Positions 11,284 through 18,472 are shown, numbered from the stretch's first letter. The stretch is DNA of 64,000 bases from Natronorubrum halophilum (GCF_003670115.1 NZ_QQTY01000002.1:186001-250000), one strand, 5' to 3'. Numbers and translations are program-made. Notes: generated by a model from the sequence alone, not told the origin.

Positions 11284-12762
11284 CTACTCGTCGCGGGTCA
11301 GATCGACCAGTTCGACCGTCTCGGGCACTCGCTCGAGCACTCCCGCCGGCCACCCGCGGTGACCCAGCGTGAGTTCGGCGTTCGGATTGTCGCCCGCGAG
11401 CCGTGCGACGCCGTCGGCCGCGGCCTCGAGCGCCGCACGATCCGTCCGGTCCGGCACCTCCGCGGTGAGCGGATAGCTCTTCGAGAGCGCCCGCGGGAAA
11501 GGACCGAAGGGCGGTTCGACGCGCCAGGAGTCGTCGAACTCGTCGCCGCGCGGGGGGTTCCCTTCGGTGAGAAAGAGCGAGTCCGGGACGGAAAGCCGCT
11601 CGAGGCGCCGGTGGTGGCGAACGACTTCCGGCCGCCGTGCGCTCTCGTGGGAGGTGTAAAAGAACGCGCCCTTCGAGACGGGATCGGTTCGCTCGAGTTG
11701 GGCGGCGTGATCGAGCAGCGCGCGGTAGCCGTCGAGCATCGTCGGGTGCGCTCGAGCGCGTTGTTCGACGAGTTCGAGGAGGTTGCCCGCGCGGATGGCC
11801 TGTTTGATCCGGCGGATCTCTTCGAAGGTGACGTGGAGGTTGTGGGCGGCGAGTTCCTGCTCGCGAGGTTTCTCGGCGAGCGCGCGAAGTTCGTCCGGCG
11901 AGTGTTCGGTACAGACGGGACACGAACACGGTAGATAGTCCAGATCCTCGAGGTGACGGGTCCCGCGGACGGTGAGATACCGGTCGTCGCGGGCGTAGAG
12001 CGCGTACGCGGCGGAGTCGAACAGGTCACAGCCCATCGCGACGCTGAGCGCGAACATCATCGGGTGACCGGCGCCGAAGAGGTGGACCGGCGCGTCGGCA
12101 CCCAGGCCGCGCTTGGCGGCGGCGATGGCGTCGACCATATCGTCGTACCGGTAATCGTTCATCAGCGGCACGACCGCACCGATGGGGAACACGTCGAGGT
12201 CGGTCCCGTCGGCGTGACGACCGGCCTCCTCGCGCAGGTCGGGATACGTCGACCCTTGGACGGGCGCGCTCACGAGCATGTCGTCCGTCTCGACGTCCTC
12301 GGCGATCTCGAGTCGTTCTTTGGTCGTCTCGAGTTCGGTTTCGGCGCGCTCGCGGTCGACGTCCGGCGGAGTCGGGATGTCGACGGGGGTGGCGATATCG
12401 GAGCCGATGGCGCGTTGGAACTCGAGGATCTCCTCGGTCGTCACTTCGATCTCGCCGTACTCGGAGAGCTGAAAGGAGCCGGAGTCGGTCATGATCGCGC
12501 CCGGAAAATCGAGCAGATCGTGGAGGCCGTCCTCGAGGGCGCGCTCGCGGACGTCGGCCGTCTCGTGAATAATGTACGAGTTCGTGATGAGGATCTCGGC
12601 ACCGAACTCCGTCGCGAGTCGACGGGGGGCGATCGTATCCAAATTCGGATTGATCACGGGCAGGAGCGCCGGCGTCTCGACCGAGACGTCGGCACGCGGA
12701 ACGGTGAGCTCGCCGATTCTCCCGCCGGCGTCGGTATCCCGAACTTCGAAGGACTCGCGCAT
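11284..12762 (-). CDS. tgtA: tRNA-guanine(15) transglycosylase (archaeosine TGT)
   Basis: TgtA exchanges guanine 15 for preQ0 in archaeal tRNAs, the first tRNA-level step to archaeosine. The protein is 492 residues. The TGT catalytic barrel shows [13 protein letters not shown], with Asp as the expected general base/nucleophile near residue 94, ALLPVINPN near the N terminus, and the zinc site CSCPVC with a downstream His in AAHNLH. The C-terminal ~150 residues are an archaeal extension without an obvious PUA domain. Start at [14 protein letters not shown]. arcS lies downstream in the same orientation, with the TRAM gene between them. Confidence 0.95.
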
Positions 12763-13013: not shown

Positions 13014-14261
13014 ATGGTTACACGACCGCAAAAACTCGGAGTCGTCTTTATCGCGCTGATGGTTGCACTGGCGGGGGGTCCTGCCCTCGCAGGCGCAACC
13101 GCAGGGGTGAACGACGACGCCGGAGACATGAACGCGACACTCGAAAACGTGCAGGTAGAGACGCTGGAACTCGATAACGCGACCATCGAGAACGCCACTA
13201 TCGAAGAGCTAAACGTCGAGAACTTCGACGCGGATACCCAGGAACTCGAGGACGAACTCGAGGCAGGGAACGAAACGAGCGATAACGAGACCGACGACAA
13301 CGAAACGGGCGACAACGAGTCGGTGACGATCTCCGACATCGGACTCGAGGAACTCGAACTTGAGGACGTCTCGATCGAGGACCTCGACCTCCAAGAGGAC
13401 GCTAACGCGACCGACGACAACGAGACTAACGTCACCGACGACAACGAGACCAACGTCACCGACGACAACGAGACTAACACGACCGACACCGGAGAGGATG
13501 TGATCGACGAGGACGCGACTATGCTCACCATTCATGAGCTCACCATCGAAACGATGGACGTCGAGACGCTCTCCATCGGCGAGTTGACCGTCGAGGATGA
13601 CACGGAGACCGGTCTCGCGGACGATAACGAGACCGACGACAACGAGACCAACGTGATCGCCGACGGCAACGAGACCAACGTGACCGTCGACGACAACGAG
13701 ACTGACGGCAACGAGACCAACATAACCGTCGACGAGGAGAACGAGACGATAACCGCTGCCTCCATTCAGGAAGACGAAAACGAGACCGACGACAACGAGA
13801 CTGACGATAACCTAACTGACGACAACGAGACCGACGATAACGTGACCGACGACGCCGAAGAGGAAGAGATCGACTCGCTCACGATCGAGCACTTCGACGT
13901 CGACGAAATCACCATCGACTCGATGATGGTCGAGCAAGCCGAGGAGGAAGCGGCTGACGAGGAGAACGGCCTCGCAGACAACGAGTCCGAGATGGACAAC
14001 GAAACCGACAGCCAGACCGTCTCGGAGGGCTCCGCCTCCACCATCGACATCGGTGACGCAACCGCCGGCATCCTGACCCTCAGTGACGCCGAGGACCTTC
14101 AGGGAACCGACGACACGGAGATGAACGGTACGGAGATGAACGACACCGACATGAACGACACGGAGATGAACGATACCAACGATACGAACGTTAGTGATGA
14201 AGACGAGAACACCACTGACGATGACGACGGGCTGCTGCCGTCGATCAGCAACCTGCTCTGA
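13014..14261 (+). CDS. secreted acidic protein with a dense N-glycosylation sequon array
   Basis: This 415-residue protein has a Sec-type signal (hydrophobic VVFIALMVALAGGPALAGA) and then an extremely acidic low-complexity chain. By my count about 36 N-x-S/T sequons are present, mostly in repeats such as TDDNETNV. Blocks of leucine/isoleucine-rich segments (for example ELELEDVSIEDLDL and LTIEHFDVDEITIDSMMVE) alternate with the sequon blocks and could form a beta-solenoid-like repeat. No C-terminal anchor such as PGF-CTERM is visible. It shares a TAASIQ motif and sequon style with the Tat protein at 15971-17305. Function unknown; a heavily glycosylated surface or matrix protein is my inference. 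Confidence 0.8.
   Translation: MVTRPQKLGVVFIALMVALAGGPALAGATAGVNDDAGDMNATLENVQVETLELDNATIENATIEELNVENFDADTQELEDELEAGNETSDNETDDNETGDNESVTISDIGLEELELEDVSIEDLDLQEDANATDDNETNVTDDNETNVTDDNETNTTDTGEDVIDEDATMLTIHELTIETMDVETLSIGELTVEDDTETGLADDNETDDNETNVIADGNETNVTVDDNETDGNETNITVDEENETITAASIQEDENETDDNETDDNLTDDNETDDNVTDDAEEEEIDSLTIEHFDVDEITIDSMMVEQAEEEAADEENGLADNESEMDNETDSQTVSEGSASTIDIGDATAGILTLSDAEDLQGTDDTEMNGTEMNDTDMNDTEMNDTNDTNVSDEDENTTDDDDGLLPSISNLL
13410..13478 (+). repeat. 24-base tandem coding repeat (TDDNETNV)
   Basis: Nearly three tandem copies of a 24-base unit encode TDDNETNV, differing only at one synonymous position (act/acc). Each unit carries two overlapping sequons. Confidence 0.75.
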
Positions 14262-14617
14262 TCGACGCGACGTAACGGAGCGGTCAGTGCGGCGCTGACC
14301 GGTTTCGTCCGTACTTTTTATTCGATCGACCGAGACAGTTCGCCGGATACTCGTCCCGAAGCCGAACGACTCGCGTTCGTTCTGACTCTCACCGCCACCT
14401 GTCGCCAACTAACGCGTGCGCCTGGTACCGAACCGACGTAGCAGTACGACGATCCGAACGATGACGAAGAGGGATGGCGTCGGGTCGATGACGAGACGGG
14501 TGATACGAAGCCGGAGTGTCGGTTCCGGCGACGAGAACGGTGGTCAGCCGTCGATCACCGCGGGAGAATGACGGATCGAACGCGAACGGCGACCGATCGA
14601 GCGTTGGGATCGTGTTT
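14262..14617. other. 356-base intergenic stretch after the sequon-array gene
   Basis: The left end holds a probable terminator at 14282-14319. Further on, a frame around 14440-14560 reads as an acidic peptide (DDPNDDEEGWRRVDDETGD) but has no start codon or clear family, so I do not call a gene; it may be a remnant. Confidence 0.4.
14282..14319 (+). terminator. hairpin plus T-run after the sequon-array gene
   Basis: GGTCAG (14282-14287) pairs with CTGACC (14295-14300) around a 7-base loop. A run of five T residues follows at 14315-14319, 21-58 bases after the stop codon. This looks like a transcription end for the upstream gene. Confidence 0.5.
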
Positions 14618-15172
14618 TCACCCGTCGGTTTCGAGCAACTGATAGTACGACATCGCGAGGACCGTCCGTCCGTCGCGGATCTCTCCGGTGCGGACGGCCT
14701 CGAGTAGCTCCTCGAAGGGGAGCGGCGTTACGCGGATGCTCTCGTCGTGATCGAGTTGCTGGTCGGCCGTCGGCCGACAGCCGCGGGCGACGAAGAAGTG
14801 CAGGACCGAATCGGCGATTCCGTTTGCGGGCTCGACGGTCACCAGCGGCTCGAGACGCTCGGCCTCGTGGCCGGTCTCTTCGGCGAGTTCACGGCGAGCG
14901 GCCACCTCGAGGTCGTCGTCGTCGGGTTCGGTGCCGCCGACGGGAAGACCGCGGTTGATTCGGGAGACGGCGTGACGCCACTCCTCGATACAGACGACAT
15001 CGCCGTCGGGGCGAAACGGGAGCACGCAGACGCTCGCGGGTTCGGAGAGGTAATCGTACTCGGTTTCGGTGTCGTCGGGCAGTTGAACGGCCTCGTTAAC
15101 GACGTCGAAGCCCGGACAGGTGTAGGCTACCCGGCGATCGGTGGTCTCCCAGGCGAGCGGATCCGTAGGCAT
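14618..15172 (-). CDS. Nudix hydrolase (ADP-ribose pyrophosphatase-like)
   Basis: This 184-residue protein carries a Nudix box, GTEPDDDDLEVAARRELAEE followed by TGHE, with Asp in place of the first Glu of the consensus. The preceding region (SVCVLPFRPDGDVVCIEEWR) and the following acidic segments resemble ADP-ribose pyrophosphatases that hydrolyse nucleoside diphosphates linked to another moiety. Start at MPTDPLAWE (15172); the longer frame is basic and unlikely. It lies between the two sequon-rich genes but shows no obvious functional link to them. Confidence 0.8.
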   Translation of the reverse strand: MPTDPLAWETTDRRVAYTCPGFDVVNEAVQLPDDTETEYDYLSEPASVCVLPFRPDGDVVCIEEWRHAVSRINRGLPVGGTEPDDDDLEVAARRELAEETGHEAERLEPLVTVEPANGIADSVLHFFVARGCRPTADQQLDHDESIRVTPLPFEELLEAVRTGEIRDGRTVLAMSYYQLLETDG

Positions 15173-15359
15173 ACCGGCCCTTACGGCGGTAGCTGTCAAA
15201 AGCGCCACGTTACGTCTCCACCGCCGCACGCGAAGTGAGGATCTCGGTTCTCGACCCGTGTTATCCGTCCTATGTGGTGCGTTCCAGATAGCATGACGAT
15301 CGTATCTGCTCTATAACAAAGCCACAGATCGGTGAACGTCGTTACTCAGAGGGTGATCC

Positions 15360-15635
15360 ATGGATCAGTTAACCGGTTTCCAACGTGACTTGTTGTACGT
15401 GATCGCAGGTAAAGACCGTCCGTCAGGACAGGAGATCCTCGACGACATCAATCGATATATCGATCAACCGGTCACCCACGGCCGGCTGTATCCCAATCTC
15501 GACACGCTCGTCGAGACGGAACTCGTCGAAAAGGGGCAACTCGACCGACGGACGAACTACTACGCGCTGACCCCGAAAGGACGGCGCGAACTCCAACAGC
15601 GCCAGGAGTGGGTTGACCAGTACGTCGACGTCTAA
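15360..15635 (+). CDS. PadR-family transcriptional regulator
   Basis: This 91-residue winged-helix protein of the PadR family has the typical start LTGFQRDLLYVIAGKDRPSG, then GRLYPNLDTLVETELVEKG and the wing DRRTNYYALTPKGRREL. The C-terminal helix (QQRQEWVDQYVDV) would form the dimer interface. Such stand-alone small PadR proteins are common in haloarchaea. A TATA-like CTCTATAAC lies about 45-50 bases upstream. The target is unknown; neighbours are a divergent Nudix gene and the DUF4397 surface-protein gene. Confidence 0.85.
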   Translation: MDQLTGFQRDLLYVIAGKDRPSGQEILDDINRYIDQPVTHGRLYPNLDTLVETELVEKGQLDRRTNYYALTPKGRRELQQRQEWVDQYVDV

Positions 15636-15970
15636 TACTCCTGGCCGTTCTCGGAGCACAACTGTTCGACAGTACCAACTGGGGTGATCGACTCGAGGGA
15701 AGCGCTGCCAGTACCACTCGGCATCCCTTCGTCACCGCACCGTAACCACCGTCTCATCGCCGCAGCGCTCGTCAGCGATATCCTCGGCAGTTTCATCGCC
15801 ACTGTCGTCCGTCCGCTCTCGGCGCGTCTCGCGACGGGAGATCGTTGCTCGAGACGAAACGGACGAACTACCGTCTCTCCGTTCGAAATCGTCGTTCGTC
15901 GCGTATCCGGCGACGGCTATCGAAAAAATAATCGGTCCGGCTAGCGGCTACCGGAATCGCTTGCGTCTAC
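15636..15970. other. 335-base stretch between PadR and DUF4397 genes
   Basis: The two flanking genes converge here. No frame has a convincing start and family match. An A-run near 15924 could serve termination of the leftward or rightward transcript. I see nothing else. Confidence 0.35.
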
Positions 15971-17305
15971 TCAGTCGTCGGCCGACGCCGACTCCTCGCT
16001 GTGGTTTCCGCCGTCCGAGTGGCTGTCGTTAGTGTAATTTTCGCCGTCGGCGTGGTCGTCGGTGTGATTTCCGTCATCGGTGTAGTTCCCGTCGTCGGCG
16101 TAAGCGTCGTCCTCGTCGTCTTCTTCCATGCCGTCGACGGCGACGCGAATCTCGAACGGCCGGTCGCCGGCGGTGTCATCGACCTGCTCGAGGTAGCCGA
16201 TCGCGAACGCCGTGTACGACATGTCTTCCTCGAGGTCGATTTCGGCGGATGCAACCGGGTCGGGCCGGTCGATTACCTGGTCGTCCTGGCCGCCGTCGTC
16301 GAGACCAGTATCGGTTTCGTTCTCCGTCTCGTTGAGTCCGGTGTCGTTTTCCTCCTGAACGGATGCGGCGGTTTCCGGTTCTTCAGGCTCCGTATCGGAG
16401 ACGTTGCCGTTTTGAGTCCCGTTTTCGACGCCCGCTCCGAAGTCGATTTCACCGGCCGGGAAGAGCTCCAGGGTCTGGGCTCCCGGCTCGACCGGGGTGT
16501 AGCCCGACGGTTCGCCGAAGGCGACGTCCTCGAAGATCGGCAGTCCCATATCCGAGTCGGTAACATCGACCGGCGGCGCGTCGGGAGACGCGTGAACCAG
16601 TCGAAGCTGTGACGTTCCCGGCTCTTCGATGTAGTCCGGTCCTTCGTCGTACAACAGCAAGACCTCGAACGTCCCCATTTCGGGCTGGTCTTCCTCGACG
16701 TCGTCGGTCACGGTGGCGTCGTCTTCGTCGCTTACCGTCGCGTTATCCGTATCGTCCACGGTGGCGTTGTCCGTGTCGTCCACGGTAGCGTTGTCCGTGT
16801 CGTCCACGGTAGCGTTGTCCGTGTCGTTCACGGTGGCGTTGTCCGTGTCGTTTGCGTCATACTGGATGGACGCGGCAGTTTCCGGCTCCTCCGCTCCCTC
16901 GTCGACGGTACCGTCGTCCGCTGTCTCGTCGGTCTCGAGTTCGCCGATCGCGGCGGCCGTGTAGTAGCCCGTGTCGACCGGAAGCGTATCCTCGTAGACG
17001 GTTGCTTCGTCGCCGGCAGCCGTGATCCTCAGCGTATACGTACCTGGCGCGATCTCGAGGTACGGCGTGAGTTCGTCGTACGCGAGGTCCGCGAGGACCT
17101 GTTGATCGTCGACGTAAACGTCGACGTTCGGGGCGTCCGGTGCGAAGTGACCGACTCGAATCGCGCCCATCTCATCACCCGATGCCTCTTCGGGATCTCG
17201 TTCGTCGTCTTCGTGCTCACTGACGGCCAGTGCCGTCCCAGTGAGTGCTGAACCTGTACCAACTACACCGATCGCCTTGATTGTCGAGCGTCGTGATAGC
17301 GTCAT
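15971..17305 (-). CDS. Tat-exported DUF4397 protein with sequon repeats
   Basis: This 444-residue protein begins with a twin-arginine signal (SRRSTIKAIG, then a hydrophobic stretch ending GTALAVS). Two DUF4397-like beta domains follow: one around residues 47-120 (IRVGHFAPDAPNVDVYVDD) and one around 230-345 (LRLVHASPDAPPVDV). They are separated by a linker with five tandem units of the type DDTDNATV. The C-terminal tail is again sequon-rich (GNYTDDGNHTDD). I count about 17 N-x-S/T sequons. TAASIQ and TAASVQ occur before the sequon stretches, and TAASIQ is also found in the protein at 13014. DUF4397 proteins are extracellular with no fixed function. No C-terminal membrane anchor is seen. Confidence 0.85.
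   Translation of the reverse strand: MTLSRRSTIKAIGVVGTGSALTGTALAVSEHEDDERDPEEASGDEMGAIRVGHFAPDAPNVDVYVDDQQVLADLAYDELTPYLEIAPGTYTLRITAAGDEATVYEDTLPVDTGYYTAAAIGELETDETADDGTVDEGAEEPETAASIQYDANDTDNATVNDTDNATVDDTDNATVDDTDNATVDDTDNATVSDEDDATVTDDVEEDQPEMGTFEVLLLYDEGPDYIEEPGTSQLRLVHASPDAPPVDVTDSDMGLPIFEDVAFGEPSGYTPVEPGAQTLELFPAGEIDFGAGVENGTQNGNVSDTEPEEPETAASVQEENDTGLNETENETDTGLDDGGQDDQVIDRPDPVASAEIDLEEDMSYTAFAIGYLEQVDDTAGDRPFEIRVAVDGMEEDDEDDAYADDGNYTDDGNHTDDHADGENYTNDSHSDGGNHSEESASADD
16734..16858 (-). repeat. 24-base tandem coding repeat (DDTDNATV)
   Basis: Five tandem 24-base units in the reverse strand encode DDTDNATV-type repeats within the linker between the two DUF4397 domains. Units differ at a few bases, so slippage or recent expansion with some drift is likely. 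Confidence 0.75.
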
Positions 17306-17459: not shown

Positions 17460-18191
17460 TTATATGCTCTCGTCGAAGGAGACCCGTGAGAGATCCGACT
17501 CGAGATCGTCGACGTGCTCGTTGAAGGCCTCGACGAAGGAACCGACGTCGTCTGCGAGCCGTCGCACCTCGGGGGCCGACGGGGGGCCGTACTGCGAGAG
17601 GAGGTACGTTCCGTCCGAGCCGCCGACTCGCAGGTACGAAACCGCGTCCCCGTCCCACTTGAGTTCCCAACGGGTGCCGGCAACTGTCGTCGCGTAGGTC
17701 CCGTACTCGCCCTCGTATCGATAGAGTTCGCTCGCCATCGCGTTCCCGACCTCGCGGATCCGTTCGACGATCCGGTCGCGTTCGGCGACCAGTTCGGCCG
17801 TCGATTCGACCTCGGGGAAGTCGTCCGGAACGTCCTCGAGGAGCCCGTCGAAGGACCTGACGTACTCGTTGTAGGCCGCGACGAACGACCCGTAGTCGGC
17901 CATCGCCGTTTCGAGCGCTTCGGGCTCGGGCGGCTGCTGGCTCGAGACGACGTACGTCTCCGATCCGGATTTGGGGTCGAATCGAAGGTACTGAACGTCG
18001 CCGGCCTCGTACTTGAGCGTCCAGCTGCCTCCGTCGGTCTCGAACTCCTCCTGTCCGTAGTCGCCACCCTGTAACACGGCGAGTTCCCGCGCGATCTCGC
18101 CCGCGTGCGTTCGAACGCGCGTCGCCAGTTCGTTCCGCCGTTCGGCGATGTCGTCCGTGCTTTCGACATCCGATTCGAGTCCCTCGGTCAT
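17460..18191 (-). CDS. haloarchaeal protein with an internally duplicated domain
   Basis: This acidic protein of 243 residues (start MTEGLESDVESTDD) consists of two related halves. Each has a helical part followed by a beta section: GSWTLKYEAGDVQYLRFDPK in the first and RWELKWDGDAVSYLRVGG in the second. Each then ends with a matching helix (YGSFVAAYNEYV and VGSFVEAFNEHV). There is no signal peptide or membrane segment. I do not recognise the family. It looks like a tandem duplication of a domain of about 110 residues, perhaps a binding module. It stands alone downstream of no obvious operon partner. Confidence 0.75.
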   Translation of the reverse strand: MTEGLESDVESTDDIAERRNELATRVRTHAGEIARELAVLQGGDYGQEEFETDGGSWTLKYEAGDVQYLRFDPKSGSETYVVSSQQPPEPEALETAMADYGSFVAAYNEYVRSFDGLLEDVPDDFPEVESTAELVAERDRIVERIREVGNAMASELYRYEGEYGTYATTVAGTRWELKWDGDAVSYLRVGGSDGTYLLSQYGPPSAPEVRRLADDVGSFVEAFNEHVDDLESDLSRVSFDESI

Positions 18192-18472
18192 CAGTTCCGA
18201 GAGGGGCTGGGGGCCGGTAACGGTTGCGTCTCGAGTCGCGTTCGACCGAACGCTGAGCTCCCGACGGATCCGAGCCGGCCGTCGGTTTCTCTCGTCTCGT
18301 ACACCGACTCCCTCCCCAGATGCAGATAAGCCACCAGCCGACACTCACGTGATCTCGCGCCACTCGAGTTCCGTCTATTCGCCTCAGTTTCCACCGGTTC
18401 TCTCGCGGCTCCGATCGTTCTCCTCGCCGCTGCTGGCGGTCGATAGCTGCGGTGGGGAAACTCGAACACCGG

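Follow-up and report, generated by a model that had tools for sequence, protein, structure and literature searches.

The nearest precedents for unrelated proteins that share a few residues and no fold are the Rickettsia palindromic elements, which are inserted in frame, and the short linear motifs of disordered regions, a eukaryotic concept. To these may be added the palindromic amphipathic repeat coding sequence (PARCEL), which is described as having spread among surface-protein genes (PMC2996958). The present analysis concerns a short element found in two exported proteins of Natronorubrum halophilum, encoded between positions 13,014 and 17,305 of a stretch of 64,000 nucleotides (GCF_003670115.1 NZ_QQTY01000002.1:186001-250000), the whole of which is called the window here. 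Protein A (13014–14261, plus strand; 415 residues) carries a Sec-type export signal followed by five short β-modules joined by acidic, disordered linkers rich in N-x-S/T sequons, while protein B (15971–17305, minus strand; 444 residues) carries a twin-arginine translocation (Tat) signal and two immunoglobulin-like (Ig-like) DUF4397 domains with acidic, sequon-bearing linker insertions. An earlier note on this DNA had drawn attention to the differing signals, borne out here, and to the motif TAAS[IV]Q common to both proteins, which it took for a possible mark of a paired surface-glycoprotein system. Comparison with relatives makes it clear that the motif is conserved, yet it is neither a private signal of the pair nor a consequence of glycosylation.

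All three copies in the window stand where the earlier note had placed them: TAASIQ at residues 247–252 of A (13752–13769, plus strand), in the linker joining module 3 to module 4 (predicted local distance difference test, pLDDT, below 50); TAASIQ at residues 143–148 of B (16862–16879, minus strand); and a second copy in B, TAASVQ, at residues 312–317 (16355–16372, minus strand). Each sits in a linker that the structure models of A and B render as disordered, and the next sequon begins 2–3 residues past it. TAASIQ is the sole 6-mer common to A and B in which three or more residues fall outside D/E/N/T/S, and since 42 of 3000 shuffles of the two proteins (1.4%) yield any comparable 6-mer match, the window by itself is at best suggestive.

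Surveys for the motif among relatives used DNA patterns, which miss AGY serine codons and some variants. The degenerate form T[AGD][AS]x[IV]Q[DE] is present in 12 genomes of the Natrialbaceae, where A accounts for 41 copies and B for 11, and shuffles lead one to expect 0.10 and 0.01, respectively; the remaining proteins compared, 35 of A and 26 of B (61 orthologues), contain none. A stricter pattern, T[AG][AS][AS][IV]Q[DE][DE], returned 31 matches from 125 genomes of the family, every one of them in the A or B gene at this locus, against none for a reversed-pattern control, and over 391 genomes of the class the readable matches outside the family belonged to MCM-type or other cytosolic proteins or were read off frame. 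Chance similarity between low-complexity acidic proteins, for which the shuffles of the window alone leave some room, can accordingly be set aside almost entirely, as it is refuted by the orthologue counts: 52 copies in 12 genomes compare with approximately 0.1 expected, and control patterns gave zero. Among these 52 copies, position 2 is Ala, Gly or Asp, position 3 Ala or Ser, position 4 Ala, Ser, Val, Leu or Ile, and position 5 Ile or Val, followed after the Gln by acidic residues; the Thr and Gln are fixed, partly owing to the search rule. The motif is real and conserved far above chance in orthologues of both proteins. Neither absent nor random among orthologues, the motif is kept within one clade, and A and B remain neighbours in at least 31 genomes. 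In two genomes (G103 and G105), each of four A linkers bears one copy, and in another (G026) a single A linker bears two.

A motif private to the locus was nevertheless rejected when an ENGL-rich Tat lipoprotein of G098 was found to carry TESAIQEDD, and further copies followed. A wider pattern, T.[AS].[IV]Q[DE]D[DE], applied to all 125 genomes with a control count of zero, adds two families that are unlinked to A and B, namely family C, a Tat lipoprotein assigned to CarboxypepD_reg by Pfam, and family D, a Tat 4Fe-4S protein by Pfam. In six genomes of the motif-bearing clade (G023, G098, G103, G105, G107 and G109), C carries TDASIQEDD, TDASIQDDD, TESAIQEDD or TGSFIQEDE, while D reads TDSFIQDDE in G107 and, as a variant, TGSFVQED in G023; in both families the copies again lie in acidic linkers. 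The element is present in A, B, C and D of G107, and in A, B and C of G098, G103, G105 and G109. A Sec membrane protein of G107 and G109 (DUF7345/DUF7343) has TGATVQ[ED]DE just past its signal peptide, and the remaining matches to the wide pattern (G019, G084) are an ABC (ATP-binding cassette)-transporter ATPase and an off-frame reading. The element, with a consensus that would read about [DE]E[AP]-E-T-[AGDE]-[AS]-x-[IV]-Q-[DE]-D-[DE], recurs in four unrelated exported families, usually no more than once per linker, and in one clade only.

Is this element a device of A and B in particular? The earlier note proposed that the two proteins form a paired surface-glycoprotein system, recognizing each other or being processed together through the motif. 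Part of that proposal stands, as synteny of the two genes holds in 31 genomes or more, and other observations lean the same way: the genomes of Natronorubrum and Natronolimnohabitans carry the motif in both proteins or in neither, and those that have lost A (G099, G101, G106 and G108) possess a B with no TxAxIQ motif. The claim that fails is the one of exclusivity, given the copies in unlinked C and D, and pairing through the motif is contradicted by Haloterrigena (G023–G028), where A bears the motif and B, which has lost or never gained it, does not. Nor do independent origins of the co-occurrence emerge from a tree of the neighbouring gene taken here to be tgtA, where motif-bearing genomes fall in one clade (Natronorubrum-Haloterrigena-Natronolimnohabitans), the distribution in either protein takes two changes to account for, and the phylogenetically independent pairs number just one.

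The sequons offer the pairing no better foundation. Their recount gave exactly 36 in A and 17 in B, in agreement with the approximate numbers put forward earlier, and their density in the two proteins co-varies over 31 genomes (rho 0.83). This co-variation was rejected as evidence for a partnership, because in an unlinked DUF4397-family lipoprotein the linker tracks A equally well (rho 0.83, 17 genomes, at least two of these "linkers" being mis-parsed signal regions with zero sequons); because this unlinked linker follows the same trend, sequon richness is better seen as a genome-wide habit. The position of the motif just before a block of sequons, also claimed, holds for the copies in the window and breaks down in the orthologues of G098, G103, G105, G107 and G109, which keep the motif with 0–3 sequons per protein, and a link between motif and sequons was rejected on that ground. 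N-glycosylation of N-x-S/T sites by AglB is established in haloarchaea (PMC8241124), and the sequons around the motif in the window would be a separate, lineage-wide feature, presumably glycosylated by that enzyme. A private system of A and B is, on balance, very unlikely, although a motif for shared recognition or processing, in the broader sense, is possible.

A stronger competitor is a neutral origin, in which recombination between acidic, GAC/GAG-rich tracts would copy words from linker to linker, and TxAxIQ would have spread with no function of its own. Other linker words behave in just this manner, as ENGL[ED]DD and NGVADDE turn up in A and B and also in unlinked acidic proteins encoded by the same genome. 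Words of the form ENG[LV][ADE]DD recur in several unlinked acidic exported proteins (L241–L244), so that within these species unrelated proteins have linker words in common. The codons tell a similar story in part. Copies within one protein agree in 0.70 of same-residue codons compared to 0.50 expected, and a silent GAA codon ahead of the Thr is common to B, C and D, where it is found in 16 of 17 copies compared to 63 of 271 other Glu-Thr pairs (p ~4e-9, although orthologues are not independent of one another). The motif core of B and C is somewhat more alike at the DNA level within lineages (0.83) than between them (0.74; n=15), and a single origin of the motif within the clade would suit copying between tracts.

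Between A and B, the DNA shows a different picture. Same-residue codon identity of the motif is 0.57 against 0.51 expected, and the core DNA of the two genes is as alike between different lineages (0.729) as within the same lineage (0.722), such that recent gene conversion between A and B finds no support from either codons or core DNA. The Thr, the Gln and the residue class at each position persist while silent sites approach saturation; the residues of the element are kept while its silent sites diverged. Furthermore, copies occur singly in each linker at regular positions, and the motif stays hydrophobic where linkers otherwise drift to pure Asp, Glu and Asn, and these points weigh against a passive word. 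The element may perhaps be old, copied between genes once and later held at the protein level. A neutral cassette is judged nearly as probable as the docking function discussed below, with proteolytic processing behind both and a private A-B pair unlikely; taken by itself, neutrality is a rather doubtful but serious contender.

Processing would have an extracellular or membrane protease cut the exposed peptide, for instance between T-x-[AS] and x-[IV]-Q-[DE], and free the domains bounded by the linkers. A small Ala or Ser at position 3 after an invariant Thr, in an exposed and disordered segment, is in keeping with such a site, and the element resembles export junctions that lead into acidic mature N-termini: where the Tat signal of B ends in G103 (L103:8166-9503), the sequence is GTALAIQEDD, close to the internal motif, and the Sec protein of G107 and G109 reads ADAGATGATVQ[ED]DE. 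However, internal copies have no preceding hydrophobic segment and would therefore be missed by signal peptidase. Position 4 accepts Val, Ile, Leu and Phe, no protease was linked to the motif, and cleavage at up to four copies per protein would chop it into single modules. Cleavage is improbable, though less so than a system private to the pair.

The explanation favoured here, tentatively and with somewhat less than an even chance of being correct, is that the motif is a short linear element specific to this clade, set in the disordered linkers of exported proteins, where it would serve in docking or assembly as a sticker for a common partner. The element forms a small hydrophobic island within long, acidic, disordered linkers. 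It probably arose once in the Natronorubrum-Haloterrigena-Natronolimnohabitans clade and may then have spread between the linker-encoding tracts of different genes, as hinted by the common silent GAA codon, to be kept as an exposed sticker recognized outside the cell. Candidate partners include a shared surface protein or the exposed edges of β-sheets. As the first strand of module 2 of A reads T-I-S-D-I-Q in some orthologues, and thereby resembles the motif, a free motif peptide could, speculatively, pair with an exposed β-edge. A bolder extension, and a distinctly less probable one, is an extracellular address or docking code, in which T-x-[AS]-x-[IV]-Q peptides would tag the disordered acidic linkers of several unrelated exported proteins of this clade, to be gathered or processed outside the cell by a common surface partner. 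Several observations weigh against a docking function. No binding partner of the motif was found, and outside these genera most orthologues of A and B do without it, so neither protein needs the motif for its basic role. In the genome of the window, the stricter patterns find exported copies in A and B only. Moreover, because the tree allows a single origin, only one independent pair replicates the joint presence in the two proteins, and the recurrence of ENGLEDD-type words means that some of the sharing could be neutral repeat exchange.

Protein A has no match in Pfam or NCBIfam at E-values up to 1, and no pentapeptide-repeat model recognized it; profiles of the PDB returned no match, and Foldseek and VIA returned no significant structural match. 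An AlphaFold model nevertheless displays five β-stretches, each approximately 25 residues long and with a pLDDT near 90, between linkers below 50; with an overall predicted template modelling score (pTM) of 0.46 and no structural match, a quadrilateral β-solenoid would be no more than a candidate fold. The module region shows an h-x-h-x-x rhythm, and from this rhythm and the model the cores are placed, all on the plus strand, at residues 53–73 (13170–13232), 105–127 (13326–13394), 170–193 (13521–13592), 283–311 (13860–13946) and 333–356 (14010–14081). Protein A is akin to pentapeptide-repeat and β-solenoid proteins in its rhythm and in its confidently predicted β-stretches, and unlike them in having no family or structural match and in modules interrupted by disordered linkers. 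In two orthologues (L103 4064-5563 and L110 9703-11364), module 2 opens with VTISDIQ, which fits T.[AS].[IV]Q inside a folded β-module. In one subtype of A (L118:6309-7514 and 13 other A proteins), the linker leading into module 4 bears a conserved hydrophobic island of approximately GGIL[GS]QIGDFIGGIF, suggestive of a short amphipathic helix. A brief hydrophobic tail (PSIAVL, GLLG or similar) closes many A proteins, that of the window lying at 14225–14261, whereas the B proteins of this clade have TADD or a comparable ending.

Protein B, by comparison, is readily assigned. The DUF4397 profile (PF14344) matches it over two stretches with an E-value of 1e-29 (103.8 bits, against a gathering score of 30.6), downstream of a Tat-type start, and both regions were also recovered in the genome search. 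The first domain lies at 16922–17164 and the second, which matches the N-terminal half of the profile, at 16427–16612, each on the minus strand. The structure model of B shows two Ig-like domains (pLDDT of about 80–92) with linkers below 50, and it best matches the Ig-like extracellular domains of PepT1 and PepT2, with E-values down to 3.6e-7. Like other DUF4397 proteins, B resembles in its model the tandem extracellular domains of these transporters and, more weakly, AlgF; unlike B, the DUF4397 paralogues found elsewhere in eight related genomes have neither long acidic linkers nor the motif. Tandem arrays of 24-base units, noted earlier in both genes, were each recovered by Tandem Repeats Finder: units encoding TDDNETNV between modules 2 and 3 of A (13402–13487, plus strand; 3.6 copies) and units encoding DDTDNATV in the first linker of B (16740–16851, minus strand; 4.7 copies). 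Their common period was rejected as meaningful, as orthologues of either gene vary widely in the length of their repeat unit.

The locus itself is conserved well beyond the motif. Homologues of A were detected in 99 of the 125 genomes of the family and those of B in 104, a count that takes in some DUF4397 paralogues, and a profile of A finds almost no match outside the Natrialbaceae. Matching loci span Natronorubrum, Haloterrigena, Natronolimnohabitans, Natrinema and other Natrialbaceae. In nearly all of the loci fetched, the order is tgtA, A in one or two copies, NUDIX, PadR and B; because 40 extra loci were mostly picked for A and B matches lying close together, the figure of 31 syntenic genomes, which crosses genera, is a lower bound and not a rate. 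The conserved neighbour on the other side of A (11284–12762, minus strand), placed by synteny alone, is presumably tgtA, an archaeosine tRNA-guanine transglycosylase. Between A and B lie a NUDIX hydrolase (14618–15229, minus strand) and a PadR-type regulator (15360–15635, plus strand), both identified by family match and synteny, and a hypothetical protein downstream of B (17460–18344, minus strand) is a neighbour in most genera. The regulator retains 86–97% identity across genera, far above its neighbours. At four loci (L107, L108, L109 and L111, of G106, G108, G101 and G099, respectively), A is missing between tgtA and NUDIX and B is kept, and in G007 and G008 (L132, L133) a tandem pair of B-like genes occupies the locus, one of them only 36–40% identical to B.

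The literature searched contained no mention of TAASIQ and, among the few papers found, no description of the A-B pair. If the element is functional, it would represent an extracellular system of short linear motifs in archaea, through which unrelated exported proteins are gathered or processed with no common fold; if it is neutral, it would exemplify the spread of acidic linker words between the genes of one genome, and caution against functional readings of low-complexity motifs. Proteins A and B share with the AglB-dependent N-glycoproteins of Haloferax volcanii (PMC8241124) their secretion and their many N-x-S/T sites, and differ from them in that their own glycosylation is only presumed and in a motif that persists in orthologues almost devoid of sequons. 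As with PARCEL (PMC2996958) and with the Rickettsia palindromic elements, a short coding element is dispersed over unrelated genes of one organism, surface proteins among them; unlike those, the present element spans only about 12 codons, is variable at the DNA level and is confined to the acidic linkers of exported proteins. Closer in character are the short linear motifs of eukaryotes, which the element resembles in being short, degenerate, exposed and recurrent in unrelated proteins, and from which it is set apart by its extracellular location, its archaeal host and a partner that is as yet only putative.

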